From the NCBI GenBank assembly GCA_015057585.1, contig SVEF01000001.1, positions 62,001-126,000 on the forward strand: a stretch of DNA of 64,000 nt, written 5' to 3'. Positions 10,069 through 44,785 of this stretch are shown here, piece after piece; position 1 is the stretch's first letter; every line of letters starts with the position of its first letter. The DNA comes from Lachnospiraceae bacterium (GTDB taxonomy: Bacteria; Bacillota; Clostridia; Lachnospirales; Lachnospiraceae). The position numbers were made by a program, and so were the translations under genes. Under the pieces are notes generated by a model that saw only the letters and a program-made list of their open reading frames with translations, was not told the DNA's origin and did no database searches.

Positions 10069-10076
10069 GAGGTGGA

Positions 10077-15486: not shown

Positions 15487-15912
15487 ATGCAGATCAGTCG
15501 AGAATTTATATTGGAGGCAGTCGGTTTATCATTGCTTGTTATGCTTCTTTTGTTGGGAACACAGATGTTTCAGAGGGCAACCGGTTTGATAGAGATGCTC
15601 GATGAAGAACAAAGCAGGCAGATAGAGAGTTTAAAAGAATATGAAATAACACAATTCGATGGCAGAAAAATAGACGGGGTGACGGTAATCGGCTATATCA
15701 AAAATATGGTAAATCATTACGGTTTGTCGGTTTGTGTGCAGACAGAGGAAAAAGAGTTCACAATAGACAGCAAAGAGAACTGTCAACAATTGAAAAATAC
15801 AGCATCAGAGTATTATATCAGTTCGTTTGGACTATATGAATGTTGCGTTGTAAGAGATGAAAATGGGGGAGTGGATTACATTTTGATTACAGAGGAGGCG
15901 GAAGAATTATGA
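15487..15912 (+). CDS. Small N-TM pilin-like protein, first of a paralogous pair
   Basis: A 141-aa protein with a GGAGG site. It has a short N-terminus, one membrane segment at about residues 11-30 (AVGLSLLVMLLLLGTQMF), then a soluble domain. The stretch QFDGRKIDGVTVIGYIKNM followed by GLSVCVQT aligns with QFDNAKLKNYENSTATGSQIVDLIKSL and VTVVVAN in the next gene, so the two are paralogs. Small proteins of this form (one TM, then Y.G..VSGSEVI-like sequence) accompany Tad-like loci in Clostridia and are thought to be minor pilins or TadE-like parts. There is no clear type III prepilin cleavage site. The function is inferred from context. Confidence 0.75.
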   Translation: MQISREFILEAVGLSLLVMLLLLGTQMFQRATGLIEMLDEEQSRQIESLKEYEITQFDGRKIDGVTVIGYIKNMVNHYGLSVCVQTEEKEFTIDSKENCQQLKNTASEYYISSFGLYECCVVRDENGGVDYILITEEAEEL

Positions 15913-16364
15913 GCGAATCCAAAAATTTTATTAAGAGTGCGGTAGGAATACTGATTGTGGTGGCCATTTGTTTTGTATCGGTAACCATCTATAAGAAGGG
16001 GAATGCAAGCATTAACAGTTCCATTAGTGATTATGATGAGATTGTTTCACAGTTTGATAATGCAAAACTTAAAAATTATGAGAATTCTACGGCAACAGGA
16101 AGTCAAATTGTGGATTTGATTAAGTCATTAAAAGAAGAGGATGGTGTTACGGTTGTGGTAGCAAATGGATACATCCTGGCCAAGAAAAAGGAGCCACAGG
16201 AATATGATTATGGAGTGATACATGCGGTGGATTCCAAGATATTGAAAGACATCGCAGACAAATCACAAAAGGAATTTTACATTAATCCGTATGCATCGTT
16301 TACCTCTAATGTGCTCTATGATGAAAATAGAGAAATTTATTCGATTGTATTTGAGCAAAAGTGA
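15909..16364 (+). CDS. Small N-TM pilin-like protein, second of a paralogous pair
   Basis: A 151-aa protein; its ATG overlaps the preceding stop (ATGA). The N-terminus is MSESKNFIKSAVG, with a membrane segment at about residues 12-28 (VGILIVVAICFVSVTIY). The domain carrying GSQIVDLIKSLKEEDGVTVVVANG is shared with the gene before it. The rest is a polar region rich in Asp and Tyr. It would be exposed on the outside if the N-terminal segment is a signal anchor. Like its neighbour it lacks a recognisable prepilin peptidase site. Tight coupling with the pair and the secretion ATPase suggests a pseudopilin-type part of the fibre or its base. Confidence 0.75.
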   Translation: MSESKNFIKSAVGILIVVAICFVSVTIYKKGNASINSSISDYDEIVSQFDNAKLKNYENSTATGSQIVDLIKSLKEEDGVTVVVANGYILAKKKEPQEYDYGVIHAVDSKILKDIADKSQKEFYINPYASFTSNVLYDENREIYSIVFEQK

Positions 16365-26427: not shown

Positions 26428-27552
26428 ATGACAAAAATTGATATTATCTCCGGATTCCTCGGAGCCGGAAAAACAACATTAATTAAGAAACTTTTGGACG
26501 GTGCATTCAAGGGAGAAAAGGTAGTTCTCATTGAAAATGAGTTTGGTGAAATCGGTATTGACGGCGGCTTTTTAAAGGATGCCGGTATTGAGATTACAGA
26601 GATGAATTCCGGTTGTATCTGCTGTTCTTTAGTTGGCGATTTTGGAAAGTCCTTAAAGGAAGTGGTAGACCGTTTCCATCCGGACCGCGTAATTATTGAG
26701 CCATCGGGTGTAGGGAAGTTGTCTGATGTAATCAAGGCAGTACAGGATGTGCAGGGCGACCTTGGTGATGCAACACTCAATTCCTTCAGTGCAGTTGTTG
26801 ATGCATCCAAGGCTAAGATTTATATGAAAAATTTCGGTGAGTTTTTTAATAATCAGGTAGAGAGCGCAAAGACTATTATTTTGAGCCGCACCCAGAATGT
26901 AAAGGAAGAAAAACTTGAGCAGGTGGTTGCGATGCTCAGAGAACATAATGCACAGGCTGCCATTATCACAACTCCTTGGGATGAGTTAGATGCAGCACTT
27001 GTACTTGCAGCAATGGAAAAGAAGACAAGTTTTGAAGAAGAGATATTGCATGAAATGAAGCATCATCACCACGAGCATCATTACCACCATGAGCATGGAG
27101 AAGAATGTACTTGCGGATGTCATGACCATCATCACGAACATGACCATCATGAACATGAACATGATCATCATGAACATGAACATAATCATCATGAACACCA
27201 TCATGACCACGGTGAAGGATGCACCTGTGGCTGTCACGACCATGACGGACATCATCACCACCATCATCATGCAGATGAAGTATTTACCAGCTGGGGCAAG
27301 GAAACTCCGCGTAAGTACACAAGAGAAGAAATCGAAACAGTTCTGGTAAAACTGGCGGAGACCAATGAATTTGGTACCATCTTACGTGCGAAGGGCATGG
27401 TTGACGGTATAGACGGTCACTGGATTTACTTTGATCTTGTTCCGGGGGAATTTGAACTGCGTGAAGGAATGGCAGATTACACCGGCAGACTTTGTGTGAT
27501 TGGTACGGATTTAAAAGAAGAAGAATTGGCAAAGGCATTTAATATTAGATAA
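26428..27552 (+). CDS. CobW/P47K-family GTPase metallochaperone with a large His-rich insert
   Basis: A 374-aa protein with AAAGGAG before ATG. The N-terminal GTPase has Walker A GFLGAGKTT at residues 10-18 and ENEFGEIGIDG. The metal-binding CxCC motif is in NSGCICCSL, followed by EPSGVGKL. Residues about 211-285 hold roughly 37 histidines, many in HDHHEHEHDHH-type runs, and two CTCGCHDH motifs, a likely zinc or other metal store. A C-terminal CobW domain is short. These GTPases deliver zinc, cobalt or other metals to client proteins. It leads a three-gene operon with a CobW-DUF1980-like fusion and an ArsR-type regulator. The metal cannot be fixed from sequence; zinc is the most likely by family. 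Confidence 0.93.
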   Translation: MTKIDIISGFLGAGKTTLIKKLLDGAFKGEKVVLIENEFGEIGIDGGFLKDAGIEITEMNSGCICCSLVGDFGKSLKEVVDRFHPDRVIIEPSGVGKLSDVIKAVQDVQGDLGDATLNSFSAVVDASKAKIYMKNFGEFFNNQVESAKTIILSRTQNVKEEKLEQVVAMLREHNAQAAIITTPWDELDAALVLAAMEKKTSFEEEILHEMKHHHHEHHYHHEHGEECTCGCHDHHHEHDHHEHEHDHHEHEHNHHEHHHDHGEGCTCGCHDHDGHHHHHHHADEVFTSWGKETPRKYTREEIETVLVKLAETNEFGTILRAKGMVDGIDGHWIYFDLVPGEFELREGMADYTGRLCVIGTDLKEEELAKAFNIR

Positions 27553-27568
27553 GAAATGAGGAAGTGAC

Positions 27569-28513
27569 ATGGCAGCAACACCTGTTTATCTGATTACAGG
27601 ATTTTTAGATAGCGGAAAAACTACATTTTTACGCGACACCCTGCAGGACAGTGAGTTTTTGGATGGGGAAAAGACCGTACTGATTCTTTGCGAAGAGGGA
27701 GAAGAAGAATATGACGCGGCAATTCTTGCCGAAAAGAATGTTACGATTCTGACGGTAGAAAATGAAGAGGATTTGAATCCGCGCTTTTTGATGGAGATAA
27801 AGAAAACGCACCGTCCGGAAAAGGTTATGGTGGAGTTTAACGGTACCTGGAGCGTATCAAAGTTTCTCGAAAACGGGTTCCCGTCCGGCTGGGAACTGGC
27901 GCAGATGATTACTACAGTGGATGCTACTACATTTGAAACGTATATGAGCAATATGCGGCAGATGATGATGGAGCAGATTGGATTTACTGAACTGGTTATT
28001 TTTAACCGATGTACGGCAACAACAAAGAAAAACACATTCCGTAAATCCGTGCGTACCTTAAACCGCCGTGCGCAGGTGGTTTATGAGGCACTGGACGGAG
28101 AAGATGGCATTGAGGATGAAATTGAACTTCCGTATAACATCGATGCACCGGTGATTGAGATTGAGGATGATGATTACGGCATTTTCTATTTGGATGCACT
28201 GGATGCCCCGCAGAAATATGTGGATAAGATCGTACAGTTTACCGCGATGATATATCGCGGCAAGGAACTTCCGAAGGGCACCTTTGTGCCGGGACGTTTT
28301 GCGATGACTTGCTGCGCTGACGACATTACGTTCATTGGTTTCCTTTGCAAAGGAGAACAGGCTAATTATTTTAAAATGCGGGAATGGGTTAAGGTGACTG
28401 CAAAAATCAAGTGCGAATATTACAAAGAATATGAGGGCGAGGGTCCGGTGCTTTATCTAGAAAAGATTGAATTAACAAAGAAACCGGAAGAACATCTGCT
28501 TTACATGAATTAG
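27569..28513 (+). CDS. CobW-like GTPase fused to a DUF1980/YcgQ-like C-terminal domain
   Basis: A 314-aa protein 16 bases downstream of the first CobW gene. The N-terminus has ITGFLDSGKTTFLRD (Walker A GFLDSGKTT), and VEFNGTWS takes the place of the EPSG region. The CxCC metal motif of classic CobW is missing (ILCEEGEEEYDAAI). The last 100 residues (FTAMIYRGKELPKGTFVPGR, then CCADDITFIGFLCKG and EWVKVTAKIKCEYY) resemble the C-terminal domain of DUF1980/YcgQ (TIGR03943) proteins. Those normally pair with YcgR-type permeases near CobW genes. A fusion would couple the GTPase to that domain directly. The domain assignment is from motif memory and should be confirmed by profile search. Confidence 0.85.
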   Translation: MAATPVYLITGFLDSGKTTFLRDTLQDSEFLDGEKTVLILCEEGEEEYDAAILAEKNVTILTVENEEDLNPRFLMEIKKTHRPEKVMVEFNGTWSVSKFLENGFPSGWELAQMITTVDATTFETYMSNMRQMMMEQIGFTELVIFNRCTATTKKNTFRKSVRTLNRRAQVVYEALDGEDGIEDEIELPYNIDAPVIEIEDDDYGIFYLDALDAPQKYVDKIVQFTAMIYRGKELPKGTFVPGRFAMTCCADDITFIGFLCKGEQANYFKMREWVKVTAKIKCEYYKEYEGEGPVLYLEKIELTKKPEEHLLYMN

Positions 28514-28524
28514 GAGCAAAATAC

Positions 28525-29454
28525 ATGAGTCAGAACATACAGTTAAATTTGGATAATGCAGAGAAATTGACGGCAATTGGAAAGGCCCTTGCTTCGGAGG
28601 TGCGTATTAATTTGTTGAAATTGTTAAACCACTGCAGTCTGAATGTCAATGAGATTGCGGAGCGGCTGAATATTCCTGCATCCTCTGCGGCCATGCATGT
28701 GAAGGTGTTAGAAGAAGCCGGACTTTTGAGAGCAGAACTGTTGCCGGCTGTGCGAGGTTCCATGAAGGTATGTCATAAGGCAGTAGATGAGATTCACCTG
28801 CAGACTATTTCGTCTATGGGAATGGAGAAAGTGGAAGTCATCAACATGCCAATCGGGTCGTTTGTTGATTATAAGGTGGCTCCGACTTGTGGATTAGTGA
28901 GCGATAAAGGACCGATTGGAGAAGAAGATGAGCCGAGATGCTTTTACCATCAGGACAGAGCGACAGCACAGCTTTTGTGGTTTGGAGAAGGATATGTAGA
29001 GTACCGGTTCCCAAATCATGTACTGAAAGAAGCAAGGGAAACCAGGCTGGAACTTTCCATGGAACTATGTTCGGAAGACCACGAGTACAATCTGGATTTT
29101 CCGTCGGATATTACGGTATGGGTGAACAACATGGAGGCTGGCACTTGGAGATGTCCTTCGGATTTCGGCGGTAGACGCGGAATCTGGAATCCGGAGTGGT
29201 GGCCGGATAAAAATACGCAGTTTGGTGTATTAAAAACATGGAAACTGACAGAAGATGGCACTTACATTGACAATGAAAAGGTAAATGACACTACGCTGCA
29301 CGGGTATTCTCTGAATGCATCGGATTATATTTCTGTACGTATCGGGATAAAAGAAACTGCGGAGAAGAAAGGCGGAATCAATCTGTTTGGAGAGAGTTTC
29401 GGTGATTTTGCACAGGGTGTTCGTATGGCAATCTATTACGAAGAGAAAAAATAA
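28525..29454 (+). CDS. ArsR-type transcriptional regulator with a large C-terminal domain
   Basis: A 309-aa protein starting after AGGAGC. The N-terminal winged helix (LTAIGKALASEVRINLLKLL, then NVNEIAERLNIPASSAAMHVKVLEEAGLL) is of ArsR/COG4189 type. From about residue 100 a large beta-rich domain follows, with CFYHQDRATAQLLWFGEGYVEYRF and ITVWVNNMEAGTWRCPSDFGGRRG. No ArsR-type metal-binding cysteine pair is obvious in the helix region. Linkage to two CobW genes suggests it may sense metal status or a related signal and control this operon; that is inference. In other bacteria members of this long family lie next to sugar or metal genes. Confidence 0.85.
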   Translation: MSQNIQLNLDNAEKLTAIGKALASEVRINLLKLLNHCSLNVNEIAERLNIPASSAAMHVKVLEEAGLLRAELLPAVRGSMKVCHKAVDEIHLQTISSMGMEKVEVINMPIGSFVDYKVAPTCGLVSDKGPIGEEDEPRCFYHQDRATAQLLWFGEGYVEYRFPNHVLKEARETRLELSMELCSEDHEYNLDFPSDITVWVNNMEAGTWRCPSDFGGRRGIWNPEWWPDKNTQFGVLKTWKLTEDGTYIDNEKVNDTTLHGYSLNASDYISVRIGIKETAEKKGGINLFGESFGDFAQGVRMAIYYEEKK

Positions 29455-31305: not shown

Positions 31306-31428
31306 AATATTGTGTCGAATTTTGCAGGAAAAGCAAATTTTCACAAAATTCTGAATAATAAAACGAATCAAAGTTTTTTCTTGAAGTTTTATTGAGGGTT
31401 AAAAAATAAAGATGGGAGGGTGGTATTT

Positions 31429-34332
31429 TTGAAAAGAATTATCAGTGCAGTCTGTGCAGTATTGATGTTAGTGACATCGCTGGTGTATTTACAGCCGGGC
31501 GTTCAGGCCGCAGCAGAATCGGAGTATCCGACCAGAGTAATTAATGTGGTCTACGATGACTCGGGAAGTATGATTAAAGATCAGGATACGGGAGAGATGT
31601 TAGACATGTGGTGCCAGGCAAAGTATTCTCTGGAAGTGTTTGCGGCGATGCTGGAAGAGAATGACACCATGAATATCTACGTCATGAGTGACTACGTAGA
31701 TGTCTACGAAAAGGCTATTTTAGAACCGCCGATTTTAACATTAAGAGGAAACAGTGATGCAAAAAAGAACGTGGAGAAGGTACGTGCACTTTGTACTGAT
31801 GCCAGTGATACCCCGTTTAATGCAGTGAAAAAGGCATATTCGGATTTGGAAAAAACAGATGCGGATGAAAAGTGGCTGGTAGTCTTAACGGATGGTGTAT
31901 TTCAGAAGGATAAAAAGCCGGGACAAAAGAAAAGGGAAACTTATACCATTGACGAAGTTAATGCATACTTCGCAGAAAAAGATGACAGTGTCAAGGTTAT
32001 GTATTTGGCAATGGGTGAGCTTGCAGCGACGATCGATGAAGTACCGTCTCAAAATATCTTTTATGAAAAAGCGGCAACCAGTGACCAGATTTTAAATAAG
32101 ATTACGGAAATTTGCGGTAGAATTTTTAACCGGAATAGGTTAGTGGTGGATATGGAGACCATGCAAATTGAATTTGACGTTCCAATGACAGAACTTATCG
32201 TATTTGCGCAAGGGGCCAATGTTGAAATTTCAGGAATCAAATCAGAAAAAGGAAAAACCTATTCGGATAATGCTACGCAGGTTCCTGTGAGGTATTCAGA
32301 GAAAGCTACAATAGATGAGCAGTATAAGAATGTAGTAGTAAATCGTAACTTAAAGGGTACGATTTGGGCAAGAAAAGGCGACTATAATCCGGGAACATAT
32401 ACAGTAGGAGTGACCGGTGCAGAAACCATTGAAGTTTACTATAAGCCAAATGTAGATATTATGGCAGAATTGATTGATTCCGACGGAAAAATCATCGAAG
32501 GTGTAAAAGCACTGGAAGCAGGAGAATACACCGTAACCTTTTCCTTAGTAAAGGGCGGAACGAAAGAAAAGATTATAGAATCCAAACTTTTGGGAGAGGT
32601 TACCTATGAAGCTGCGCTTACTATCAATGGGAAGTCGGAAGGGGTTATCGACTCCGGTGATAAGGTGCAGTTGGATGAAGGAACCTTCCAGGTGGATGTT
32701 AAGGCGAAGTACTTAAAATACAATTCGGTTTCGACCAGATTGAATTATACGATTTATCGTGATAAGGCGTTGGATTTGGAAGTCATGGAGGTACCAACCT
32801 ATGTGATTGAAGGGGACGGCGTTTCCAATGATGACGAGCCGATTGTAGTAAAGGCAACACTGGAAGGCAAGGAACTGACAAAAGAACAGTGGAATGTATT
32901 AAAGCAGTTGGATGTGCAGGTGACAGACGAAACAAAAAATGCATTTTCCTTCAAAGCGGTAAAGGGGGATGAAATCGGATATTTTTATGTATATCCGCAA
33001 GTACATACCTCAAGTCTTTCGAGTAAAGAATACACAAAATCGGAATTGAGCTTTAGTACAACCGCCAAGTACGGAAGTGAAACCTGGGGCGGCAGTACGG
33101 AAGGCACCGTTTATTGGGAAGACTGCAGGCAAAAGAGTCTGGACCTTGAAATGCTTTCGGCTCCTCAGTATGTGATAGAGGGAGAAGGCTTGTCTAATGC
33201 GGATGAACCAATTGTTGTGAAAGCAACATTGGAGGGTAAGGAACTGACACCGGAGCAGTGGAGAGCCATGGAACCATTGAGTGTTACCGTGACTGATGGG
33301 ACAAGCGATGTATTTACCTTTGTGGCGGAAAAGAGCGATGAAATCGGTTATTTTCATGTATATCCGCAGATTCATACCGCGAATCTGACAGACACGACCT
33401 ATACACAGACCCGCGTGGATTTTGTCGCACAAGCGCAGTATCAGACAGAAATCTGGAGCGGTAGAACCAATGGTACGGTACCGTTACTCGATAACCGGAG
33501 AAAAGAACTGGGCATTTCCGTGGTTGACAGTCCGGATTATAACGTAACGGCAGAAGGAATCGAAAATGATGACCAGAAAATGGCGGTAAAGGTTACATTA
33601 GAGGGTGAGGAACTGACAGAAGAGCAGTGGCAGTATGTCGACGGCTTAAAGGTAACTCAGGCAGAGAACAAGGATGACAGAGTTTCCTTTGATGTGGAAA
33701 AGAGTGAATTGCCGGGTATCTTCTATGTGACTCCGAAGATAGACGGAGGAGCCCTGTCGGGAGAGGATTACGATGACATCGTATTAAAGATGGAAGCAGA
33801 AGGCGGATATGGCGTAGAACTGTGGTCCGGTGAGGATACGGGAACGGCAAAGTTTTCTGACAGCAGAACTCTTTTTGAAAAATATCGCAATGCCATTATC
33901 TTCGGACTGATTTTACTGGCGTTGTTGATTTTGTTCCTTGGTTATGTGCCTCCGTTTAAACGATACCTGCCAAAGAAATTGAAAAAGAATCCGATGATTA
34001 CCTGTTCACCGACAAGACCGGGACAACGGCCGTATGAGGTTGGAGGAAGATATTCCAAGAATAGAATTACAACCTTTATACCGTATGTGCCGGAAACAGG
34101 AACAATCAGAGTACTTCCTTCCAATACAGGAGTTTCGCCGTTAAAGGTAAAGGCGGCCGGCGGAAACCGTATGGAAATTACAAATACAAAGCTATATGCA
34201 AAGAGACAGAATCTTACGTTTGACGGACAACCGGTACAGGCGGGAGCAAAGAAAAACCTGAAAAAATCAGCCGGAATGATTGTAAGATACAAGACCAAAG
34301 ACACAGAGTATACCTGTGTGCCAAATAAATAA
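31429..34332 (+). CDS. Secreted, membrane-anchored vWA-domain protein with three internal repeats
   Basis: A 967-aa protein. TTG 31429 is chosen: GGGAGGG lies nine bases upstream and the product then starts MKRIISAVCAVLMLV, a clean signal peptide ending at about VQA. GTG 31420 would overlap the site. A vWA domain follows with MIDAS motif DDSGS at residues 43-47. After linkers come three repeats of about 122 residues (about 447-567, 568-690, 693-810), each with a core like PIVVKATLEGKELT.EQW and ending near W.G. A membrane helix lies at about 821-840 (AIIFGLILLALLILFLGYV), then a basic cytosolic domain of about 125 residues that is beta-rich. The vWA part would face outward and the tail inward, near the tubulin-like protein encoded next. 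Confidence 0.92.
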   Translation: MKRIISAVCAVLMLVTSLVYLQPGVQAAAESEYPTRVINVVYDDSGSMIKDQDTGEMLDMWCQAKYSLEVFAAMLEENDTMNIYVMSDYVDVYEKAILEPPILTLRGNSDAKKNVEKVRALCTDASDTPFNAVKKAYSDLEKTDADEKWLVVLTDGVFQKDKKPGQKKRETYTIDEVNAYFAEKDDSVKVMYLAMGELAATIDEVPSQNIFYEKAATSDQILNKITEICGRIFNRNRLVVDMETMQIEFDVPMTELIVFAQGANVEISGIKSEKGKTYSDNATQVPVRYSEKATIDEQYKNVVVNRNLKGTIWARKGDYNPGTYTVGVTGAETIEVYYKPNVDIMAELIDSDGKIIEGVKALEAGEYTVTFSLVKGGTKEKIIESKLLGEVTYEAALTINGKSEGVIDSGDKVQLDEGTFQVDVKAKYLKYNSVSTRLNYTIYRDKALDLEVMEVPTYVIEGDGVSNDDEPIVVKATLEGKELTKEQWNVLKQLDVQVTDETKNAFSFKAVKGDEIGYFYVYPQVHTSSLSSKEYTKSELSFSTTAKYGSETWGGSTEGTVYWEDCRQKSLDLEMLSAPQYVIEGEGLSNADEPIVVKATLEGKELTPEQWRAMEPLSVTVTDGTSDVFTFVAEKSDEIGYFHVYPQIHTANLTDTTYTQTRVDFVAQAQYQTEIWSGRTNGTVPLLDNRRKELGISVVDSPDYNVTAEGIENDDQKMAVKVTLEGEELTEEQWQYVDGLKVTQAENKDDRVSFDVEKSELPGIFYVTPKIDGGALSGEDYDDIVLKMEAEGGYGVELWSGEDTGTAKFSDSRTLFEKYRNAIIFGLILLALLILFLGYVPPFKRYLPKKLKKNPMITCSPTRPGQRPYEVGGRYSKNRITTFIPYVPETGTIRVLPSNTGVSPLKVKAAGGNRMEITNTKLYAKRQNLTFDGQPVQAGAKKNLKKSAGMIVRYKTKDTEYTCVPNK

Positions 34333-34351: not shown

Positions 34352-37300
34352 ATGAATGCACCTACATTGATCGTCGGTCTCGGCGGAAAAGGTTCGGATA
34401 TCGCGTTACGTGTATCCAAGATGGTAAGTGAAGAGCAGCGCAAGCAGATTGGGTTTGTTGTATTTGATACCGACGTAAATGAATTACGTCAGATTAAAGA
34501 AGAAAACCCGCATGTTTACACGGTTCAGACTTCGACCAAGTTATCGGTTGGTGAGTACCTGGATATTGATACCCACTCGAGAGATACCTGGTTCCCGGTA
34601 AATGCTATTTTAAACAGTAAGACACTGACAGAAGGTGCCGGACAGGTACGTGCGGTATCCAGAATGGCATTTGAAACCGCTATCCGTGCAGGCAAGATGG
34701 AAACCTTACATAAGGCAATTGAAGATTTATATAAGTTAGAGGGTGAAGAGTACCAGCAGGCACTCAGAGTTATCATTGTAAGTTCCTTAGCAGGCGGTAC
34801 CGGTTCCGGTCTTATTCTTCCGGTAGCTCTTTACATTAAGAACTATCTGGCAACCAGATTCCGTCAGAGTGCAAACATTACCAGAGGCTTCTTCCTGTTA
34901 CCGGAAGTATTCTATGGTGTAATCCCTGGACAGGCAGAACGCAATAACTTAAAGAGTAATGCGTATGCAACCTTAAAGGAAATCGATGCATTCTTAATGA
35001 AGGGTGACTCCACATTACCTGAAAAGTACAGAAACAGCGTAAAGATGGAATTCCCGTGTGCAGCCTCCGGAGAATATGAAGAATATGATGTGAGACCGTT
35101 TGACTTCTGTTTCTTATTTGATGCACAGAACTCCGAGGGTAAGAAATTAAATTCCTTTAATGAATACTTAGACCATGCGGCTAACTGTATTTATGCACAG
35201 TCCATCGGTCCGATGAATAAGAGAAGTAACTCTTCCGAGGATAATACCATCCGTAAACTGTGTGCTGAGCGCGGTAGAAACCGTTATGCCGGTGCCGGTA
35301 CAGCAATGTTAATTTATCCGGTAGATGAGATTAAGCGTTATATGGGTCTTTCCTGGGCAACGGATGCACTTTCCAAGCAGTGGCTGACCTATGATAACAG
35401 ATTCAAGCAGGAGCAGAAGGCAAATGCACAGAAGAAGAAACAGGGCGTACGTGTCGCAGATGTAAGAGAGGACAAGTGTTATATCGGTTCTGTAGAGCAG
35501 TTAGCAAGCAATAAGGATCCGTTTGCAATGTCTATCGTAGAAGTTTGCGGTACCTATGACGAAGCAGGCATCGAAAGAATCTCCGATAAGTGGGATGAAT
35601 ATATTGCAGAATTAAAGAAGAAGATTGAAGTGGAGAATTCCTCCGGACAGAGTGAACTTGACAGTATTCGTGACCAGATTACAGGCTCCATGCAGTCGAT
35701 TGAACCTGGTGCAGGAGAAGAAGCATGGGCTGCTTATACGGAAGTTTATGGTAACTTAAAGAAGTATAAGACCATGATTCAGCGCCATGTCAACGATATG
35801 GCAGGCACGGTTGCTTATGCAATTTTCCATGCAAATGAAGAGAATGTTACCGGAAATAAGCAGAAGCATCAGCTTGAAAAGTATATGAGAAATGCCCAGG
35901 GTGAATTCATGCATCCGAATGCAGTAAGATATTTCCTGTATAAGGTATTAGAGGGTTTAAACAACGAGTACCAGATGGTACATAAAAACGTGGCGGATGC
36001 TGAAAAGTACTTTGATGAATTCGAGAGAAGCATCTTTGACGATACGGATACCGACAGAATTGAGACTGCGGATGATTTGGCAAAGACCAAGAAGGTATCG
36101 GTTGCCGACAGATTGCTGAAGCGCTTAAGCAGTGACCAGGAAGACCTGATTTCGGCATATTCGCTGTACTTGCAGACGGCAAACAAATACAGAGTAGACA
36201 CCATCTATGAGGCGGTACTGGAAGAGGGTATGACTTATGTCAGAAAGCTTTGTGAGGCTTTCCAGAGCTTTTACAGATCCTTTGACGGCAAACTTTCCGG
36301 CATGAGTCGTGAAGTGAAGTCCATCGAGAAGAAGTTTGACCGCATGAAGGGTACGGCAGCCAGATACGTTTGTGCATCTCCGACCTGCTTTACCAAGATG
36401 CTGGAGAAGATGCCGTACGGCGGTGGAAATATTTCCATTGGCAATGAACTTGCAGAGACGATTTACTCCAAGGTACATGCATATGCAATGATGCAGACCA
36501 GAGCAGATAACAATACGTACTTCAGCAACATTTTTGATGTAGATATTTTAGATTACTTTAAGAATATGCTGATGAGAGATTACAGTGATGAAATCGATAT
36601 TGATGTTATTACTGCGATTGAAAAGGAAGCAGAATACGAAAGAGGCATTTTTGACGATGCAAGCTTAGAACAGTATGTTGTGCATGCGTTCAATGAAGCA
36701 AAGGTACTTGCAGCTCCGTTTATCGAAAAGCCGATGGGTGAAGAGAAGGATCCGATTAACTCCTGTACCTTCAATAAGAGTCTGTTTGGAGAAGAGGATT
36801 CCCCAAGATCCCGCATGGTAGACAGAGAACTCAGAAGCTTCGGCGGTGAGCCGGACAATGATGTTCCGAAGAATATGATTATGTTCTATAAGTCCTTCTA
36901 CGGATTGCGTGCGAACGATTTAAGTAAGTTTGCTCCGCCACAGAAGGCAGAAACCTACAACAGGGTAGGCGGCGAATATTTCAAGGCATACTATGAACTG
37001 GTAAGCAAGATTCATCCGGTATCCGATAAGAGCCGTGTGATTACTCCTCATATCGACAGATGGTGGCACAACGTTGCCATGATGCCGGATTTGGATGAAG
37101 GAAATCAGGCAAGACAGGAAACCGAAATCTATGCGGCATTGTTTTGGGGTCTTGTGAATTCTTACATTGATATGGCAGAAACCGGTTATGGTCAGAAGAA
37201 TTACCGACTGAACGTGGAAGATGTGGACTTAGATGAGGATTCCAGTACATTGGTTGTTTCCAACGGTACACCTTGTGATAAGTTATACGAGGTCTGGGAT

Positions 37301-37816
37301 GCCCTTTCCATTTATCCGGAGCTGGTAACCAATATTTTGAGAAGAACCGAGGATGAAATTAAGGCACAGTTAAACGGAAATACGGCATTGGCAGAGAGCA
37401 GCCTGTATAAGGGTCTTGCAAGCTTCCGCATCAGAGAGTTTCCACTCTGCGGTGCGGAAAACAAAGTACGAAGTGTTTTGGATATCCCATTGTTAATTAA
37501 GAGAACCATGCTGTCCGAACTGTATAATGAAGAAAAGGTAATCAACATCCTTAAGGTTATGATTGCCGAACTTCAGAAGTATGTTGCAAGATTTTGCACT
37601 GCAAAGGAATATCCGGAAGTAGCAGGAAAGTTGATTCTCAGCCAGTTTGATAAGTTCCTGGAAGACATTGCATTAGAGAGCAATTGTTGGAAGGATGTAT
37701 ATCACGATTATCTCTTTATGAGAACTTGCAGCAATGTAGCTAAGACTTTAGAAGAGTTAGGCTTACGCGATGCGGCAGAAAATGTAAGAGAAAGAGCAAA
37801 GGAGCTCAGCAAATAA
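34352..37816 (+). CDS. Tubulin/FtsZ-superfamily GTPase-like protein (Tubulin_2 type)
   Basis: A 1154-aa protein with TTAGGAGG before ATG. The N-terminus NAPTLIVGLGGKGSDIALRV gives the T1 loop, VVFDTDVNEL the T3-like region, and SSLAGGTGSGLILPVALYI contains the tubulin signature GGTGSG at residues 148-153. A GTPase core of this kind is known in FtsZ, tubulin, TubZ and the large Tubulin_2 (PF13809) group. The remaining 900 residues are mainly helical, with no membrane segment. It is far longer than FtsZ (about 350-400). It may polymerise on the inner face of the membrane with the vWA and TM partners in this operon. GTP binding is a confident prediction; polymerisation is inference. Confidence 0.9.
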   Translation: MNAPTLIVGLGGKGSDIALRVSKMVSEEQRKQIGFVVFDTDVNELRQIKEENPHVYTVQTSTKLSVGEYLDIDTHSRDTWFPVNAILNSKTLTEGAGQVRAVSRMAFETAIRAGKMETLHKAIEDLYKLEGEEYQQALRVIIVSSLAGGTGSGLILPVALYIKNYLATRFRQSANITRGFFLLPEVFYGVIPGQAERNNLKSNAYATLKEIDAFLMKGDSTLPEKYRNSVKMEFPCAASGEYEEYDVRPFDFCFLFDAQNSEGKKLNSFNEYLDHAANCIYAQSIGPMNKRSNSSEDNTIRKLCAERGRNRYAGAGTAMLIYPVDEIKRYMGLSWATDALSKQWLTYDNRFKQEQKANAQKKKQGVRVADVREDKCYIGSVEQLASNKDPFAMSIVEVCGTYDEAGIERISDKWDEYIAELKKKIEVENSSGQSELDSIRDQITGSMQSIEPGAGEEAWAAYTEVYGNLKKYKTMIQRHVNDMAGTVAYAIFHANEENVTGNKQKHQLEKYMRNAQGEFMHPNAVRYFLYKVLEGLNNEYQMVHKNVADAEKYFDEFERSIFDDTDTDRIETADDLAKTKKVSVADRLLKRLSSDQEDLISAYSLYLQTANKYRVDTIYEAVLEEGMTYVRKLCEAFQSFYRSFDGKLSGMSREVKSIEKKFDRMKGTAARYVCASPTCFTKMLEKMPYGGGNISIGNELAETIYSKVHAYAMMQTRADNNTYFSNIFDVDILDYFKNMLMRDYSDEIDIDVITAIEKEAEYERGIFDDASLEQYVVHAFNEAKVLAAPFIEKPMGEEKDPINSCTFNKSLFGEEDSPRSRMVDRELRSFGGEPDNDVPKNMIMFYKSFYGLRANDLSKFAPPQKAETYNRVGGEYFKAYYELVSKIHPVSDKSRVITPHIDRWWHNVAMMPDLDEGNQARQETEIYAALFWGLVNSYIDMAETGYGQKNYRLNVEDVDLDEDSSTLVVSNGTPCDKLYEVWDALSIYPELVTNILRRTEDEIKAQLNGNTALAESSLYKGLASFRIREFPLCGAENKVRSVLDIPLLIKRTMLSELYNEEKVINILKVMIAELQKYVARFCTAKEYPEVAGKLILSQFDKFLEDIALESNCWKDVYHDYLFMRTCSNVAKTLEELGLRDAAENVRERAKELSK

Positions 37817-37842
37817 TTCTGTAAGAAAAGGTGGTGAAATTT

Positions 37843-39789
37843 GTGTATTCTGTATTAATACAAAACAAAAAAACGATGGAATCGTTTCATGAGTTTCATC
37901 CACTGTTTTTAGAGACATTGGGAAAGGATATTGTTCTTTGCCGGTGGTTGGAAGCGGGGACAACAATTGATACGGCATTGCCGGAACTCAGTCAATTGAC
38001 GGATTCGGTAGAAAGATGGCGTGCAATTATTGTCCACGTGGAAGACGAGGAGGAAATGAAAAAATATGAAAGGCATCCGGACAATCCGTATGACTTTCTT
38101 ATCAATTCTTCAAAGGCAGATGCAACAAAGGAGAGCCCGGTGCCTTTGATTCGATTGACACATATGTTGGGCGGAGTTCCCGCCCCGGAAATTGAGTATG
38201 AAAGCCGTGTAGTTGCAGAAAAAGCCAAAGTACCGAGAACGATTTATGTTCCGAAACCGCGCGGTGAGGAAACACGTTTGCACGCAGAACTTTTAGAGCG
38301 GTATGATTTCAACGGTAAATTGCCGACGGAAATCATTGTAATCACGTTACGGCTTAGAAAAAAAGAGCAAATGGACCCGACACGAAGAACGTGGAATCCG
38401 TTACAGGAATCCAAAAGTTCGGAGTTTTGGCGAAGGAATAATTATCCGGGAAAATGCAGATTTGTTGTTTGCGACTATATTAACGAAGGTGTAATACAGA
38501 AGAGAGCAGATATGTTTTCCTTCTGGACCAGCGTTTTGCTCCTTGCGACAAACGATATTGATTCCAGCTCTCTGCAGGCATACCGTTTGTATACCATGAA
38601 GGTTCATTACAATAAGTTTATTATGGAAGAAACCTTTAAGTATAAGGCAAAGACGTTGCGTGGGGTACGGAGATACATCAATTACGAATTGGATAAGGAC
38701 ATCAAGAAAAAGAATGCGGTCAGAAAAGAACTTCCGCCTTATGCAGACTATTCGGTATCTGTCGATTCCGGTTATCCGAGCCGTTCGGACGTTGTAGTTG
38801 ACACGGGAGAATTCAAACTGAGTGCGCGAAGTGAGTCTGCGGAAAAAGAGAAGTGGAGAAAACTGAGCCTTGAAGCAGAGGAAAAACTGGAGGATGCGTT
38901 TAAGCAGGCGGAACGTGTTTTGGAAGAGCGTGCGGATGAAATACGGTATCACAGTAAGATTAAAACAGAGGACCGGATTGAGATTCAGCCTTTGGACCGA
39001 TTCCAGATGGAAGATGTCAATACCGACTTGTTTACGCTGTACGGTAAAATCTTAGAGAAACAGAATAATCTGCCGCGTCTTCAGTTGGGTAAGAAGACGA
39101 AAACAGCGGAGCGTTCCGGAAATGTAAAGAATGCGGTGACAGCGCGTATTACGAAGGGCTGGGTTATGGATATTGTCCTGATACTTTTGGGGCTTTTGGT
39201 CCTTTCACTGATTCCGGCGGTGCTGTTTACGTATTTTCTCGGCATGGGAAAGACGCTTGGTACGGTGCTTGTTACACTTGCTTTGCTGCTTGCATTTTTG
39301 ATTTTGCTGTTTATTCTTTTGAAGTTCCAAAGACACAGGTTCATCAAGAAAATTATCGCTTACAATGATGTGTTAGAGGATAATTTACATGAACTTGTGG
39401 AAAACCTGACAAAATATCAGGAATTTGTAGGAGATGTGGTTTCTTATGCCAGAGGCAAGAATTATCTGGAACTTCTGCGTCAAAGAATGTATATGTTAGC
39501 AAATACCTATAGCAAATACGAGATTCATTTAAGAGCCACAAATGCATTTTTAGATAAAATCGCACGATGGGCAGCCGCATTTTATATTCCGTTAACGTCA
39601 GAGTATGAAGAGGATGAAGAGGTTGAGATTGATTTGGATGCTGTTCCAAACTACAACCACATGTATACCTTCGAAACGGACTGGGAACATCAGGTGCCGT
39701 TTAACCAGACGGGGGATTATATGAACGCACCGTTCCATTTTATTGAGCGGGTAGAAATCAAGAGAGAGGAGTTGTACGAAGATGCGTGA
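37843..39789 (+). CDS. Two-TM protein of the tubulin-like system
   Basis: A 648-aa protein. GTG 37843 is chosen because AAGGTGGTG ends six bases before it, giving MYSVLIQNKKTMESFHEFH; upstream GTG codons fall inside the ribosome site. The N-terminal domain of about 120 residues has alternating strands and helices (KDIVLCRWLEAG, WRAIIVHVEDEEEM). A charged middle follows. Two adjacent membrane helices lie at about 441-465 and 471-495 (IVLILLGLLVLSLIPAVLF and TVLVTLALLLAFLILLFI). The cytosolic C-terminal part is helical and ends REELYEDA. It probably anchors the tubulin-like protein or its filament to the membrane, an inference from position. The start of the next gene overlaps its stop by eight bases. 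No known family recognised. Confidence 0.85.
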   Translation: MYSVLIQNKKTMESFHEFHPLFLETLGKDIVLCRWLEAGTTIDTALPELSQLTDSVERWRAIIVHVEDEEEMKKYERHPDNPYDFLINSSKADATKESPVPLIRLTHMLGGVPAPEIEYESRVVAEKAKVPRTIYVPKPRGEETRLHAELLERYDFNGKLPTEIIVITLRLRKKEQMDPTRRTWNPLQESKSSEFWRRNNYPGKCRFVVCDYINEGVIQKRADMFSFWTSVLLLATNDIDSSSLQAYRLYTMKVHYNKFIMEETFKYKAKTLRGVRRYINYELDKDIKKKNAVRKELPPYADYSVSVDSGYPSRSDVVVDTGEFKLSARSESAEKEKWRKLSLEAEEKLEDAFKQAERVLEERADEIRYHSKIKTEDRIEIQPLDRFQMEDVNTDLFTLYGKILEKQNNLPRLQLGKKTKTAERSGNVKNAVTARITKGWVMDIVLILLGLLVLSLIPAVLFTYFLGMGKTLGTVLVTLALLLAFLILLFILLKFQRHRFIKKIIAYNDVLEDNLHELVENLTKYQEFVGDVVSYARGKNYLELLRQRMYMLANTYSKYEIHLRATNAFLDKIARWAAAFYIPLTSEYEEDEEVEIDLDAVPNYNHMYTFETDWEHQVPFNQTGDYMNAPFHFIERVEIKREELYEDA

Positions 39790-42700
39790 GTTTTTGACAA
39801 GAATCGGGACAACGATTGCGATTATCGCAGTCTGTACCTTAGCGCAGTGTCTTACGAATACAAAGAAAAAAGACAGAAGTAAGCAGACCGTACTTCCTCT
39901 GGTGGCAATTTTATATTACGTTGTCGCCGTTACGGCAAGCTTTGTTTTGCTGTTAAAGATTGAGCGGTTTTTAGAAATATTGGAAAAGCTGATCAGTATG
40001 TTTGATTTGTGTTCGGTTGTGATTTTCAATGTGGCACTTTATGCAGGATATCTTGCAATCAAGAGTGTGGCTTACGGACTTTGCCTGATTATTTTCCGTA
40101 CCATCCGTTTCCCGGGACTTACGGAGTTCTTCTACGAGTATGACCAGGAGTACAATGAGTGGTTTTTACAGGAACGTTGGGCAAACGTATACCGGTTGTT
40201 TAAGTGGTTTACCATTGTCGGTACGGTATTTTGCGGTACGGCAATCGGAGTCATTTGGCATCTCGGATATGAGTCGCAGTATTATACCTGTATTTTCCCG
40301 GTCGTTGTACAGATTGTAGTAGCTGAAATCTTTTGTTTCCTGGGCGGATATACGAAATCGACCTATGAACATGAGGTTATCGGTGAAGACAGTCATGCGC
40401 AGAAAATCAGTAATTTCTATAAAATCAGGGAAATATTAGAAAAGACATTTCCGCGAGAAGTGTTGACAGCAAGCACAGGATCGGAGTATTCGTATGCTTC
40501 CGGTGTCATCGATTTATTAAAGCAGTTGGAAGAGTCGGATGAGACAAATGAAAAGATAGTATCAGAGTATTTCAAATTCGGTGAAGGAGAAGAAGAATAC
40601 GATGTTGACTGTATTCAGGCAACATTAAAACTGCTGAAACATGAAAATGTTGTATTTTTCAATCCGTTCTATCGGGATTTGGGAAAATACCTGGCACTTC
40701 CTTTCATGAATTCTCTTCTGGCAGGGAAAAAATGTCTGGTTATAGTGGGACGTTCTTCTACAAGAGAAGATATTAAGCTTTGGCTGGAGGAAATGCTGAA
40801 GGATCACGCAAAAATCCAGTCGCTGTGGCGTGTACGGGAATTGTCCTCACATGAACCGGAGTGTGAAGTCGGAATTTTAAACTTCTCACAATTATATGAT
40901 TTAAGAATTATTGAAAAAAATAGAGAATTTTTAAAGGATGTCGGTTTTGTATTTATATTAGAACCGTCTCTGATTGTAAATACCGGCCAGGTTGGTGTCA
41001 GCATTCTGGCACAGCAGATGGTAAACATCGGAGAGAAGCCGGTATATTGCATTGCGGACCGTTTGGTAGATGGACTGGTGGATACGATGTCCCATCTTCT
41101 TCAGACGGAAATCACGGAAGTGGTTGCTCCGCCGGTTTCCAGAAACATCCATACCGCAATGGCATGGAATGCTGACGGAGATTATTTAAGACAACGATTG
41201 TTCGGAAAGCAGACACATTATCTTGGTAATGGTGTGGAACTTGCAGCCGTAGCGGTAAAGAACCAGATTCCGAAGGTCATCTGGTTTGGTGAGTCAAAGG
41301 TGCCGCTTCGTGATATCAAGTGGATTGCAAGCCAGTGTTATCCGGTATTGTGTAAGTACATGAATATTCCGATACAGCAGCAGGCATTCTGGGAGAAACT
41401 TCAGTTTGTTTCGAATATCTGGAGTGTTCCGGAAGAGGACGAGCAGTTTGTCATTGCCGAAGACGAATTTATTAGTATTTTCAGTACTTTAAGAACATTT
41501 CTTTCCAGAGGAAAGAGACAGACATTTGTCAATGTCCTTTCGGAAAATTATCTGCTGAGAGACTATATGAGACATAATCCGCAGATGTTTGCAACGAATC
41601 CGAATGCCATTCCTTCTTTGGTGCCGGATTATGCAAAGACGGAGAGAAATACGTTACTTAAATTAATCTTAAATATGACATACCGCGCAGTAACGGAAGA
41701 GGAAATCATTAGTGAATTCCATCTGGTTGGACTTGATACGAACGATGCTTTCCATACGATATCCAGCCTTCTTACAAAGTATACCTATGCGACGGATGAT
41801 ATCTTTGATATTCAGACTGTAAGAGGGGAATTTGACGGTGTTTCCGTAACATCACAAAATTATTACAGGGTTGTTCCGGAAAAGTTCCAGATGTACTTTG
41901 GTGAGGTTTTACAGAATGCATACTACATCTGTGAAGAAGAAGTCGATGGCAGCGAGTATTTGGATTCCAAACTGATGGGACATGTTACTCAGACGATTCT
42001 TCCGGGTCAGTTCGTTACATACGAAGGAAAATACTACCTGGTAAAGCATATTTCTTCAATCAATGGTGTTGTATTGCGAAGAGCATCCAACCTGTTCCAT
42101 GGAAGAAAATATTACAGACAGATCAGAGAGTATCGTTTTTCTGAAAATGCAACAGAAGAGATTGTCAACTCTAAGACCGTTATGGGAGTAGAAGTTACTG
42201 TATTCCGTACAGACTTTAGTGTAGCCACAACCGGTTACCTTGAGATGAACAACAACAACGATTTACGCTCTGCAAGGGTACATGATTTTTCAAATGACCC
42301 GTCTGTAGATATCTACACAAGAAGATATCACAATAAAGCGGTACTTCGTGTGCAGATGCCGAATAGTAATTCTAAGGTACGTTATACCATTTGTATGCTG
42401 TTATCCGAGATTTTTAAGTCGATTTTCCCGAATGCATGGCAGTACCTTGCTGTGACTTCGGAGATGCCGGATGATATCGACGGCATGCTGAATCATATGG
42501 TTTATAGCGTATCCGGAGACGTAAATCCGGAATATATCTATATCATTGAGGACAGTGAATTAGACCTTGGTTTGCTGGATGCAGTAGAAAAGAACCTGGT
42601 ATCTTTATTGGAACTTGTTACCGACTTCATCACCTGGCATTTTGAAAAGATGAGAGAACCGGCAGAGAAAGATCCGGAAATTCATACCGTGGAATTCCCG

Positions 42701-44182
42701 CCGAAGCCGAAAAAGAAGAATAAACTCTTGGAAAAGATCAAGAAAATTCTTCGTTTGGGCAAGAAGGAGGAAAACTCGGATACTCAGACGGAGTCCGCTG
42801 AGGATGGTGTAACTGAAGAGACTTCTGAGGCTACGTCGGAAACACTTTCCAAGAAAGAAGCAAAGGCAGCAAAGAAGCGGGAGCGTAAAGAAACCAGAGA
42901 AAAGAAGAAGCAGGAAAGAAAACAGGCAAAGGCTGAAAAGAAATTGCAGAAAGAAAAAGAACGTGCAGAGAAGAAATTACAGAAAAAGCGTAAAAAACAG
43001 GGCACAGAGGAAGAAGTAGCAGAAGAACAGGAACAGCTTCCTGAGGAAACAGAAACTACGGAAACCGCGGAGGTTGCAGAGGTTGAGGAAACTGTTGAAG
43101 AAGCAGTTGCAGCAACAGCGGAAGACGCAGAAACTATAGAGCCTGTAGCTGCAGAAATTCCGGTAGAACCGGAAACAGAGTCTGTGCCGATTGTGCAGCC
43201 TGAATTTAAGGTTTCTGAAGGCTGGAGCCCGAATGGTGAGAAACCGGATTACGGTAAGTTAGACGGTACGGATATCTTTGATGAAACCAGCGGTAAAGCG
43301 GCAGAAGAAGGCTTTGAGGAATTCTTTGAAGCAGCAGGAATGCCGGCTGGTGAAAAGAGCCGTTACCAGGAAGAGTGTTATCTGAAGTTTGGTTTTGATG
43401 AAATTGATGCCAGATTGAAACTGGATGAAGTGCGTACGTATCTGACCTTGCACGGATTTGCTGACAATGCTCTTTTGAAGGCAAGAAGACGTGAACCATT
43501 TGAAGAGACAATTCTTGATATGGATGCGACCAATCATTGTGATTTCTGTCAGAAACCGTTAAGCGGAGTCAGTTATGAAAAACTGACAGATGGCAGAATC
43601 CGTTGTAACGATTGTAGTTCCACGGCAATTGTTTCTGTAGAGGCATTCAGAGAATTGTTTTTCCAGTCGTTGCAGATGATGGAAAGTTTCTTTGCAATCG
43701 AGTTCAAGGTGCCGATTAAGGTAAAGACCCTGGATGCAAAGAATATCGCACGCGGAGCCGGCAGTGTGTATGAGCCGACGACAGCAGTTGCTGCCCGTGT
43801 ACTTGGTTATGCACAGCGCAAGGACGGTATGTTCTATCTGAATGTAGAAAATGGTAGTCCTCGTCTGGCCACACTGACTACGATGGTGCATGAGATGACA
43901 CATATCTGGCAATATGTCAACTGGAAGGATTCCGAAATCAAAAAGGCATATCCGGACAAGTGGCAGAGAGATATTGTCTATGAAGGTATGGCCATGTGGG
44001 TACAGGTACAGTATCTGTATCTCATCGGAGAAGAGTCTTATGCGAAGCAGGAAGAAGCATATGCTATGCTGAGGGAAGATGCTTATGGTATCGGATTCCG
44101 TATGTGCTGTGAGAAGTATCCGCTCATTAAGGACTCTTCGCTGGTAACACATACGCCGTTCAATCATTTTCCACCTCTTTAA
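39782..44182 (+). CDS. Five-TM protein with degenerate helicase-like region, zinc ribbon and HExxH zincin domain
   Basis: A 1466-aa protein, ATG overlapping the previous gene. Five membrane segments lie within the first 195 residues. Residues about 290-980 form a large cytosolic region. Its order recalls an SF2 helicase (NPFYRDLGKYLALPF, VIVGRSSTREDI, FVFILEPSLIVNTGQVG, YCIADRL), but P-loop and DEAD residues are lost, and a late IYIIEDSELDLGLLDAV resembles the DUF1998 region. A Lys/Glu-rich linker (about 980-1150) follows. Then a four-Cys ribbon (CDFC 1253-1256, CNDC 1275-1278) and a metallopeptidase-like domain with HEMTH at 1370-1374 and a third-ligand Glu at about 1401. Catalysis by the zincin part is plausible. 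The helicase reading is inference only. This gene is the largest of the operon. Confidence 0.85.
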   Translation: MREFLTRIGTTIAIIAVCTLAQCLTNTKKKDRSKQTVLPLVAILYYVVAVTASFVLLLKIERFLEILEKLISMFDLCSVVIFNVALYAGYLAIKSVAYGLCLIIFRTIRFPGLTEFFYEYDQEYNEWFLQERWANVYRLFKWFTIVGTVFCGTAIGVIWHLGYESQYYTCIFPVVVQIVVAEIFCFLGGYTKSTYEHEVIGEDSHAQKISNFYKIREILEKTFPREVLTASTGSEYSYASGVIDLLKQLEESDETNEKIVSEYFKFGEGEEEYDVDCIQATLKLLKHENVVFFNPFYRDLGKYLALPFMNSLLAGKKCLVIVGRSSTREDIKLWLEEMLKDHAKIQSLWRVRELSSHEPECEVGILNFSQLYDLRIIEKNREFLKDVGFVFILEPSLIVNTGQVGVSILAQQMVNIGEKPVYCIADRLVDGLVDTMSHLLQTEITEVVAPPVSRNIHTAMAWNADGDYLRQRLFGKQTHYLGNGVELAAVAVKNQIPKVIWFGESKVPLRDIKWIASQCYPVLCKYMNIPIQQQAFWEKLQFVSNIWSVPEEDEQFVIAEDEFISIFSTLRTFLSRGKRQTFVNVLSENYLLRDYMRHNPQMFATNPNAIPSLVPDYAKTERNTLLKLILNMTYRAVTEEEIISEFHLVGLDTNDAFHTISSLLTKYTYATDDIFDIQTVRGEFDGVSVTSQNYYRVVPEKFQMYFGEVLQNAYYICEEEVDGSEYLDSKLMGHVTQTILPGQFVTYEGKYYLVKHISSINGVVLRRASNLFHGRKYYRQIREYRFSENATEEIVNSKTVMGVEVTVFRTDFSVATTGYLEMNNNNDLRSARVHDFSNDPSVDIYTRRYHNKAVLRVQMPNSNSKVRYTICMLLSEIFKSIFPNAWQYLAVTSEMPDDIDGMLNHMVYSVSGDVNPEYIYIIEDSELDLGLLDAVEKNLVSLLELVTDFITWHFEKMREPAEKDPEIHTVEFPPKPKKKNKLLEKIKKILRLGKKEENSDTQTESAEDGVTEETSEATSETLSKKEAKAAKKRERKETREKKKQERKQAKAEKKLQKEKERAEKKLQKKRKKQGTEEEVAEEQEQLPEETETTETAEVAEVEETVEEAVAATAEDAETIEPVAAEIPVEPETESVPIVQPEFKVSEGWSPNGEKPDYGKLDGTDIFDETSGKAAEEGFEEFFEAAGMPAGEKSRYQEECYLKFGFDEIDARLKLDEVRTYLTLHGFADNALLKARRREPFEETILDMDATNHCDFCQKPLSGVSYEKLTDGRIRCNDCSSTAIVSVEAFRELFFQSLQMMESFFAIEFKVPIKVKTLDAKNIARGAGSVYEPTTAVAARVLGYAQRKDGMFYLNVENGSPRLATLTTMVHEMTHIWQYVNWKDSEIKKAYPDKWQRDIVYEGMAMWVQVQYLYLIGEESYAKQEEAYAMLREDAYGIGFRMCCEKYPLIKDSSLVTHTPFNHFPPL

Positions 44183-44206
44183 TAACCGGAAAGCGGGGTG
44201 AATCCT

Positions 44207-44785
44207 ATGGAATCATTACTTGATATATACGGTGACATCTCTCAGGAGGTGAAACGTATTTTAGACCGGATTGCAGGTGTGGAAAAACAGATTCAGGAAC
44301 TGAAACAACAGCGGATGAGTGAATATATCGAACGGATTAGTCACTTGAGAAGTCAATTGATAAAGATTGACGAATATGAGGTAATCATTCAAGGGTATAT
44401 TCAGATGGCAGAAGCAGGCTTGTCCAGTAAGAATGTGTTAACGATTGAAGCACCTCCGGGCTACAAAGTAAATTTAAACAGATTGCGTCAGTGGGCCTTA
44501 AAAATTGATCCGTTAGCATTAGAGGATCCGGAGATGCCGGACGATCCGTATGCGCAGAAATTACTTGCGGTTGCTTTATGTGATCTTCGTTTTCTGGAGC
44601 AGAAAAAAGTGGAGTTTAAATGTCGAATTGTTGAACTTGAAGAAGAGATGGCGAACGAAACGACAGATGATATCAAAGCACTGGAAGAAAAACATCGCAA
44701 ACTCGAGAAAGAGTTGCAGGATTACGGATGCAGTGAAGAGGTTCTGCGTCTGGTGAAAGAAATGAGTTTAAAAAACGTAACATAA
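44207..44785 (+). CDS. Small helical cytosolic protein, last gene of the tubulin-like system
   Basis: A 192-aa protein. ATG 44207 is preferred over the in-frame GTG 44198, since GGGGTG at 44195-44200 is the likely ribosome site. It has no membrane segment. Residues about 5-60 (VKRILDRIAGVEKQIQELKQQ) and about 125-185 (LEQKKVEFKCRIVELEEEM, IKALEEKHRKLEKELQDYG) are strongly helical and charged, likely coiled coil, separated by a Pro-rich part (APPGYKV, DPEMPDDPYA). It could bridge partners or bind filaments. It lies 24 bases after the zincin gene and before a strong terminator, so it is the last gene of the operon. No family recognised. Confidence 0.82.
   Translation: MESLLDIYGDISQEVKRILDRIAGVEKQIQELKQQRMSEYIERISHLRSQLIKIDEYEVIIQGYIQMAEAGLSSKNVLTIEAPPGYKVNLNRLRQWALKIDPLALEDPEMPDDPYAQKLLAVALCDLRFLEQKKVEFKCRIVELEEEMANETTDDIKALEEKHRKLEKELQDYGCSEEVLRLVKEMSLKNVT

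Follow-up and report, generated by a model that had tools for sequence, protein, structure and literature searches.

The stretch analyzed here, the window, comprises 64,000 nucleotides of a Lachnospiraceae bacterium (GenBank assembly GCA_015057585.1, contig SVEF01000001.1, positions 62,001 to 126,000) and carries a gene whose 1466-residue product joins in one chain a predicted membrane anchor, a pseudo-helicase of the YprA/MrfA type that would have lost its canonical ATPase and a probable zinc peptidase. This anatomy, taken on its own, is proposed with high confidence. Regarding the function, the reading placed first, to which we give about an even chance, is that the protein is a membrane-anchored pseudo-helicase with a probable cytoplasmic peptidase, acting as a non-hydrolysing part of an FtsZl1-vWA membrane system. 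The gene and the parts of its product are as follows.

39782..44182, forward strand: whole gene of the predicted membrane-anchored pseudo-helicase/peptidase, 1466 residues (open reading frame; single copy; relatives in other genomes).
39803..40354, forward strand: N-terminal membrane region, residues ~8-191, with about five hydrophobic helices (Kyte-Doolittle peaks, eight family members).
40505..42658, forward strand: predicted pseudo-helicase, residues ~242-959, with RecA1, RecA2, a beta-rich region and a DUF1998-like end (AlphaFold2 model, Foldseek, VIA-align).
42539..42577, forward strand: DUF1998-like end, residues 920-932, YIIEDSELDLGLL, aligned with IYIYDxYPGGVGFAE of MrfA, the DUF1998 cysteines being absent (extended profile alignment, of low confidence here; MrfA alignment).
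42719..43321, forward strand: charged linker, residues ~980-1180, with 49 Glu and 31 Lys (composition; poorly conserved).
43538..43615, forward strand: four-Cys ribbon CxxC-18-CxxC, residues 1253-1278 (invariant in 11 relatives; weak Zn_Ribbon_1 and DZR matches).
43889..43984, forward strand: predicted zinc-peptidase active site, from HEMTH (1370-1374) to Glu1401 (invariant in 11 of 11; DUF6782; zincin-like model).

The original prediction, made from the letters alone, had placed the central ~700 residues in the order of a superfamily 2 (SF2) helicase, and a centre folding unlike RecA domains would have spoken against it. An AlphaFold2 model of residues 185-985, built from ten relatives and no templates (predicted TM-score 0.78, mean predicted local distance difference test (pLDDT) 74), shows instead RecA1 and RecA2 followed by the OB-CON-DUF1998 canopy, the fold of the YprA/MrfA family. 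When this model was compared with the PDB by Foldseek, the top four chains were all MrfA (E 6.7e-22 to 1.6e-15, 729-753 columns), matched over its full length and headed by 6znp_A, a DUF1998 helicase (E 6.7e-22, 752 columns), and other SF2 helicases came after them (Brr2, Hel308 and PolQ, near 5e-10), which leaves MrfA about 12 orders of magnitude ahead of the next family. Also, VIA-align against MrfA gave Z 17.5 over 468 residues and Z 16.2 over 554, whereas the similar Z obtained with DEAD-box helicases spans only about 300 residues. A memorised MrfA structure is unlikely, because the network weights used presumably predate the MrfA entry in the PDB.

Moreover, a profile-profile comparison of the target family with nine MrfA-type (DUF1998) helicases, gathered for a family alignment, scored 35-36. 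For comparison, column shuffles scored 19.2 +/- 2.8 (maximum 30.7 of 150) and block shuffles 22.8 +/- 2.8 (maximum 31.9 of 100); reversing the profile gave 17.6, and the scores of two neighbour families were 21 and 18. One large DUF1998 helicase alone (L052) gave an uninformative 20.7, and the nine-sequence alignment was needed.

Several observations weigh against the reading placed first. The hhalign probability of the alignment with the MrfA family is only 6%, and therefore the profile alignment serves as support and by itself is no proof. Neither the query nor ten members match the Pfam helicase families, PF09369 (MZB) and PF00270 (DEAD) included, and MZB finds no match in the source's own genome. 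In addition, model confidence is moderate, with a mean pLDDT of 74 for the centre (10 sequences) and of 77 for the C terminus (11 sequences). The absence of a sequence-family match and the low hhalign probability would be expected if the centre were helicase-like by convergence or model bias and no homologue of YprA/MrfA. However, the full-length match to MrfA runs collinearly from RecA1 over RecA2 into the C-terminal canopy and has the lead given above, and the independent motif-to-motif profile alignment outscores all shuffles; we consider such an origin very improbable. A relationship of the centre to YprA/MrfA-type (DUF1998) SF2 helicases is thus the reading that the predicted fold supports.

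A lower-certainty extension of the profile alignment runs collinear to the end of the region, where IYIYDxYPGGVGFAE faces IYIIEDSELDLGLL. The DUF1998-like end claimed at the outset resembles its namesake in fold and position. The target family nevertheless has none of the four DUF1998 cysteines there, which are invariant in the nine MrfA-type proteins. A loss of this cluster has been reported for Dpd too (PMC12458937). A comparison with MrfA (YprA; PDB 6znp, 6znq and 6zns) then reveals two RecA domains, a beta-rich canopy and a DUF1998-like end in the same order and fold, whereas the target lacks Walker A and the four-Cys cluster, has changed motifs II and III, and differs in its extra TM (transmembrane) helices, its C-terminal zinc ribbon and peptidase and its gene neighbours.

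The loss of the ATP motifs can be followed at three sites of the profile alignment with the MrfA family and of the family alignment.

40661..40684, forward strand: former motif I, residues 294-301, NPFYRDLG replacing TPTASGKT.
40952..40969, forward strand: former motif II, residues 391-396, FILEPS replacing VIDEAH.
41048..41077, forward strand: former motif III, residues 423-432, CIADRLVDGL replacing SATIANP.

The profile alignment pairs IDEAH with ILEPS and SAT with ADR, so neither the Walker A (motif I) nor the DExH (motif II) of the YprA/MrfA family is found. The P-loop had already been called missing, and this is borne out: the query contains no GxxxxGK[S/T] anywhere, neither GKT nor GKS occupies the motif I site in any of the ten family members, and the changes in motifs II and III are likewise family-wide. 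The pseudo-helicase state predicted from these alignments is therefore a property of the whole family, and the motif loss suggests that the canonical ATPase is lost. The sites are not random in their new form. At motif I, PF[YF]xDL is conserved in eight of the ten members, the two most divergent (L022 and L039) being different, and the former motifs II and III have the conserved forms EPS and CDxxxDGL. Since no member keeps motif I and eight of the ten share one conserved replacement, the ATP site looks remodelled under selection and not left to drift. The same conservation, together with the Glu kept in motif II, could point to a cryptic NTPase, in which the altered site binds another nucleotide or employs other residues and the protein remains an active motor of unusual chemistry. 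Nonetheless, with GKT or GKS in none of the members and motifs I, II and III all altered, this is improbable.

At the C terminus, the ribbon cysteines (Cys1253, Cys1256, Cys1275 and Cys1278), the H-E-x-T-H residues and Glu1401, which lies 27 residues past His1374, are invariant in 11 of 11 relatives, in agreement with the positions first assigned to the ribbon and to the HExxH with its downstream Glu. DUF6782 matches all 11 members weakly (E up to 5, best E 2.4e-6), and the query, at 18.9 bits, stays below the gathering cut-off of 27. A C-terminal model built from 11 sequences places HEMTH within one helix and Glu1401 in a later helix, both at pLDDT of about 94-96. In VIA-align, several zincins reach Z 8-9.6 with this model, the top matches being tied at 8.6-9.6 (among them putative lipoproteins, M1 aminopeptidases and MATCAP, the last at 8.9), and Foldseek returned nothing below E 0.001. 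The C terminus is thus probably a gluzincin-type zinc peptidase, as both the residues and the zincin-like model suggest, which backs the HExxH protease proposed earlier. The putative metallopeptidases of DUF6782 (PF20573) and zincins such as M1 and the tubulin carboxypeptidase MATCAP share with it the HExxH and the downstream Glu, whereas the target peptidase is preceded by its own four-Cys ribbon and its structural matches, being tied, are general to zincins. For this reason, MATCAP was not accepted as a specific relative. Also, a DA1-like (PF12315) peptidase, considered for its combination of a LIM-like ribbon with HExxH, was dropped after only one member matched (E 0.21), and the L37a ribosomal matches to the ribbon (E 0.09 or worse) are common to any CxxC-CxxC ribbon. 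In one relative (L037, 1019-3181, reverse strand), the same frame continues beyond the ribbon and peptidase into a transglutaminase-like domain (PF01841, E 9.1e-6).

The remaining parts of the protein concern its location. Kyte-Doolittle peaks mark four to six hydrophobic segments within the first ~240 residues; the count is five for five of the eight relatives and varies from four to six among the remainder, in line with the roughly five TM helices described at first. This suggests a protein anchored in the membrane by these helices, and the four-Cys ribbon and the charged linker are consistent with a cytoplasmic remainder.

The gene is present in one copy in the source genome (3.0 Mb, 97.8% complete), and its product occurs in 7 of 299 genomes of the bacterial family, the source included. 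A genome from another family of the same class (G367) gives a match across most of the length, and searching 391 genomes of the class with a profile adds a full-length form (G997), a form without the peptidase (G750) and fragments. Matches in G501 (E about 1e-3), where the region has no such operon, and in G792 (E 6e-4) were judged to be chance. Single-sequence scans of the target against Pfam, NCBIfam and the PDB gave no clear domain, and phage records gave no match. A peptide-pattern search of the genome contigs recovered no relatives, the patterns being unconserved, whereas a search of the genomes did recover them. A gene in decay, with helicase and peptidase both losing function, would account for the motif loss, for the gene of G021 (L019), spread over two overlapping frames with the break ahead of the peptidase, and for a member without peptidase at L039. 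Against this, the relatives, 20-47% identical to the query, keep long open frames with no internal stops, the peptidase residues are invariant and the gene order is constant, all of which argues for selection and makes decay hardly credible. The L039 locus (8975-11965 and 488-2200) holds a diverged family member wholly without ribbon and peptidase, and a vWA-like neighbour that has no DDSGS and reads DDFYS.

The genes directly upstream of the target, a context absent from the original prediction, and the one that follows it form a likely operon.

31420..34332, forward strand: vWA-type protein with a signal-peptide-like N terminus, one C-proximal TM helix and a DDSGS metal ion-dependent adhesion site (MIDAS) motif (invariant residues; hydropathy; no Pfam match).
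34352..37816, forward strand: Tubulin_2 (FtsZl1) protein, 1154 residues (PF13809, E 9.9e-59; family alignment).
37831..39789, forward strand: 652-residue protein with two adjacent TM helices, overlapping the target gene by 8 nucleotides (hydropathy; no family match).
44198..44785, forward strand: 195-residue probable coiled-coil protein, whose gene closes the likely operon (weak coiled-coil type matches only).

In the window these genes are separated by 14-19 nucleotides or overlap by 8, and the order vWA, Tubulin_2, two-TM protein and target is found in ten of the ten loci read. The MIDAS of the vWA protein is intact, residues D46, S48, S50, T131 and D158 being invariant in nine relatives, and its vWA fold was confirmed by neither Pfam nor a PDB sequence search. 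Nothing useful came from searching PDB sequences with the alignments of this protein, of the two-TM protein or of Tubulin_2. Tubulin_2 occurs in 17 of the 299 family genomes, and all seven carriers of the target are among those 17.

FtsZl1 has been described together with vWA proteins, GTPases and membrane proteins, and a role in membrane remodelling was predicted for it (Makarova and Koonin 2010, PMC2875224). The window operon shares with these systems (PMC2875224, PMC7159879) a Tubulin_2 protein with a long C-terminal extension, a vWA protein with a TM helix and further membrane proteins. However, the partners in the published systems are a GTPase, GAP1, a kinase, OmpA or HSP70, none of which is seen in the window operon, where the pseudo-helicase-peptidase is found instead. 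For the TRAFAC GTPase and GAP1, this negative covers the window operon genes read, without a GAP1 model, and not the remainder of the genome. The literature searched treats FtsZl1-vWA systems apart from YprA helicases, and the target's fusion of a pseudo-helicase with a peptidase appears to be undescribed in it; within that range, outside which lie most subscription papers and the gene families in the supplement of Makarova and Koonin, the architecture appears new, as had been supposed. The words tubulin, transmembrane, vWA and metallopeptidase are absent from the text of a 2025 survey of YprA helicases (PMC12458937). The same literature yielded no paper mentioning DUF6782 and no experimentally known partner or role for the FtsZl1 tubulins, described in 2010.

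In the FtsZl1-vWA reading, the TM helices would hold the protein at the membrane, and the RecA pair with the DUF1998-like canopy would keep the shape of a clamp without using ATP at the usual site. In MrfA, the canopy moves upon binding of single-stranded DNA (PMC12458937). Judging from the retained fold, the clamp would most likely be a scaffold or a ligand sensor for nucleic acid or for the tubulin polymer. Where the peptidase is present, the pseudo-helicase may position or gate it, and the peptidase would probably trim some part of that complex, perhaps an operon partner. Architecture, fold, ATP motif loss and gene order were computed; the cytoplasmic side, zinc binding and gating are what we infer, and to the disadvantage of this proposal the same applies to interaction, ligand and substrate. 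A further difficulty is that the L039 member has no peptidase yet keeps the operon, and gating of the peptidase therefore cannot be the whole function. A broader version, which we hold to be rather doubtful, is that an undescribed clade of membrane-bound YprA-type pseudo-helicases forms the cytoplasmic hub of a tubulin/vWA machine, whose remodelled ATP site docks or senses and thereby controls the fused zinc peptidase on the tubulin polymer or its partners.

The surroundings also bear on a different role, that of an anti-phage or self-defence sensor, in which the dead helicase would recognise foreign nucleic acid at the membrane. The signal would then pass through the tubulin polymer and the vWA protein and, in part of the relatives, through a linked channel-like protein as well. 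YprA-type helicases stand at the centre of the defence systems DISARM (DrmA/DrmB), Dpd, Druantia and ARMADA (PMC12458937), and as in the window their YprA-type core lies inside a multi-gene operon; Kaur et al. 2020 classed the tubulin-vWA operons of Firmicutes among conflict systems (PMC7159879). The patchy spread within the bacterial family and the TrkA_N/RyR or CASTOR-like protein adjacent in relatives are also consistent with defence. The target differs from these defence helicases, which the survey associates with nucleases and of which ARMADA requires its Walker motifs (PMC12458937). Against a defence role, PADLOC found no match for five operon proteins, phage records lack the target, and the locus stands beside ordinary chromosomal genes, including putative spoIIIA genes downstream of the operon, so named from sequence and order. 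A role in defence seems rather unlikely to us.

Returning to the FtsZl1-vWA reading, a constant partner in which a dead SF2 clamp is joined to a membrane anchor and to a predicted protease would offer a concrete complex for the study of FtsZl1. If true, YprA-type helicases would have been recruited without ATPase activity beyond their known roles in DNA repair and anti-phage defence. The predicted fusion and its constant tubulin-relative neighbour point to an unstudied membrane-cytoskeleton machine.

Finally, other features were observed around the operon and elsewhere. L017 has a gene of similar size in the position of the coiled-coil gene (15618-16244). In relatives a transglutaminase-like gene is often adjacent, with separate ones beside the operon in L017, L018 and L022. 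A protein with N-terminal hydrophobic helices, absent in the window, is encoded beside the operon in L017 (16241-18166), L018 (15358-17505), L020 (16780-18897) and L022 (15642-18119), and some of these neighbours give weak TrkA_N/RyR or CASTOR-POLLUX matches. L036 carries an AAA ATPase gene (PF00004, 1792-3876) upstream of its operon. Another Tubulin_2 operon type of the same bacterial family (L098, in G201) has no pseudo-helicase; it encodes a P-loop protein with a zinc ribbon, further large proteins and a vWA protein. Inspection of its gene list by eye places it with the GAP1-N2 systems described by Kaur et al. (PMC7159879). Within the window, positions 20026-25530 encode what is probably a large surface protein, 1834 residues long and carrying Listeria-Bacteroides repeats in addition to leucine-rich repeats of the BspA type. 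Also, two CobW-type GTPase genes, one of them fused to a DUF1980 C-terminal domain, are followed by an ArsR-like regulator at 26428-29454, in what looks like a metal homeostasis cluster.

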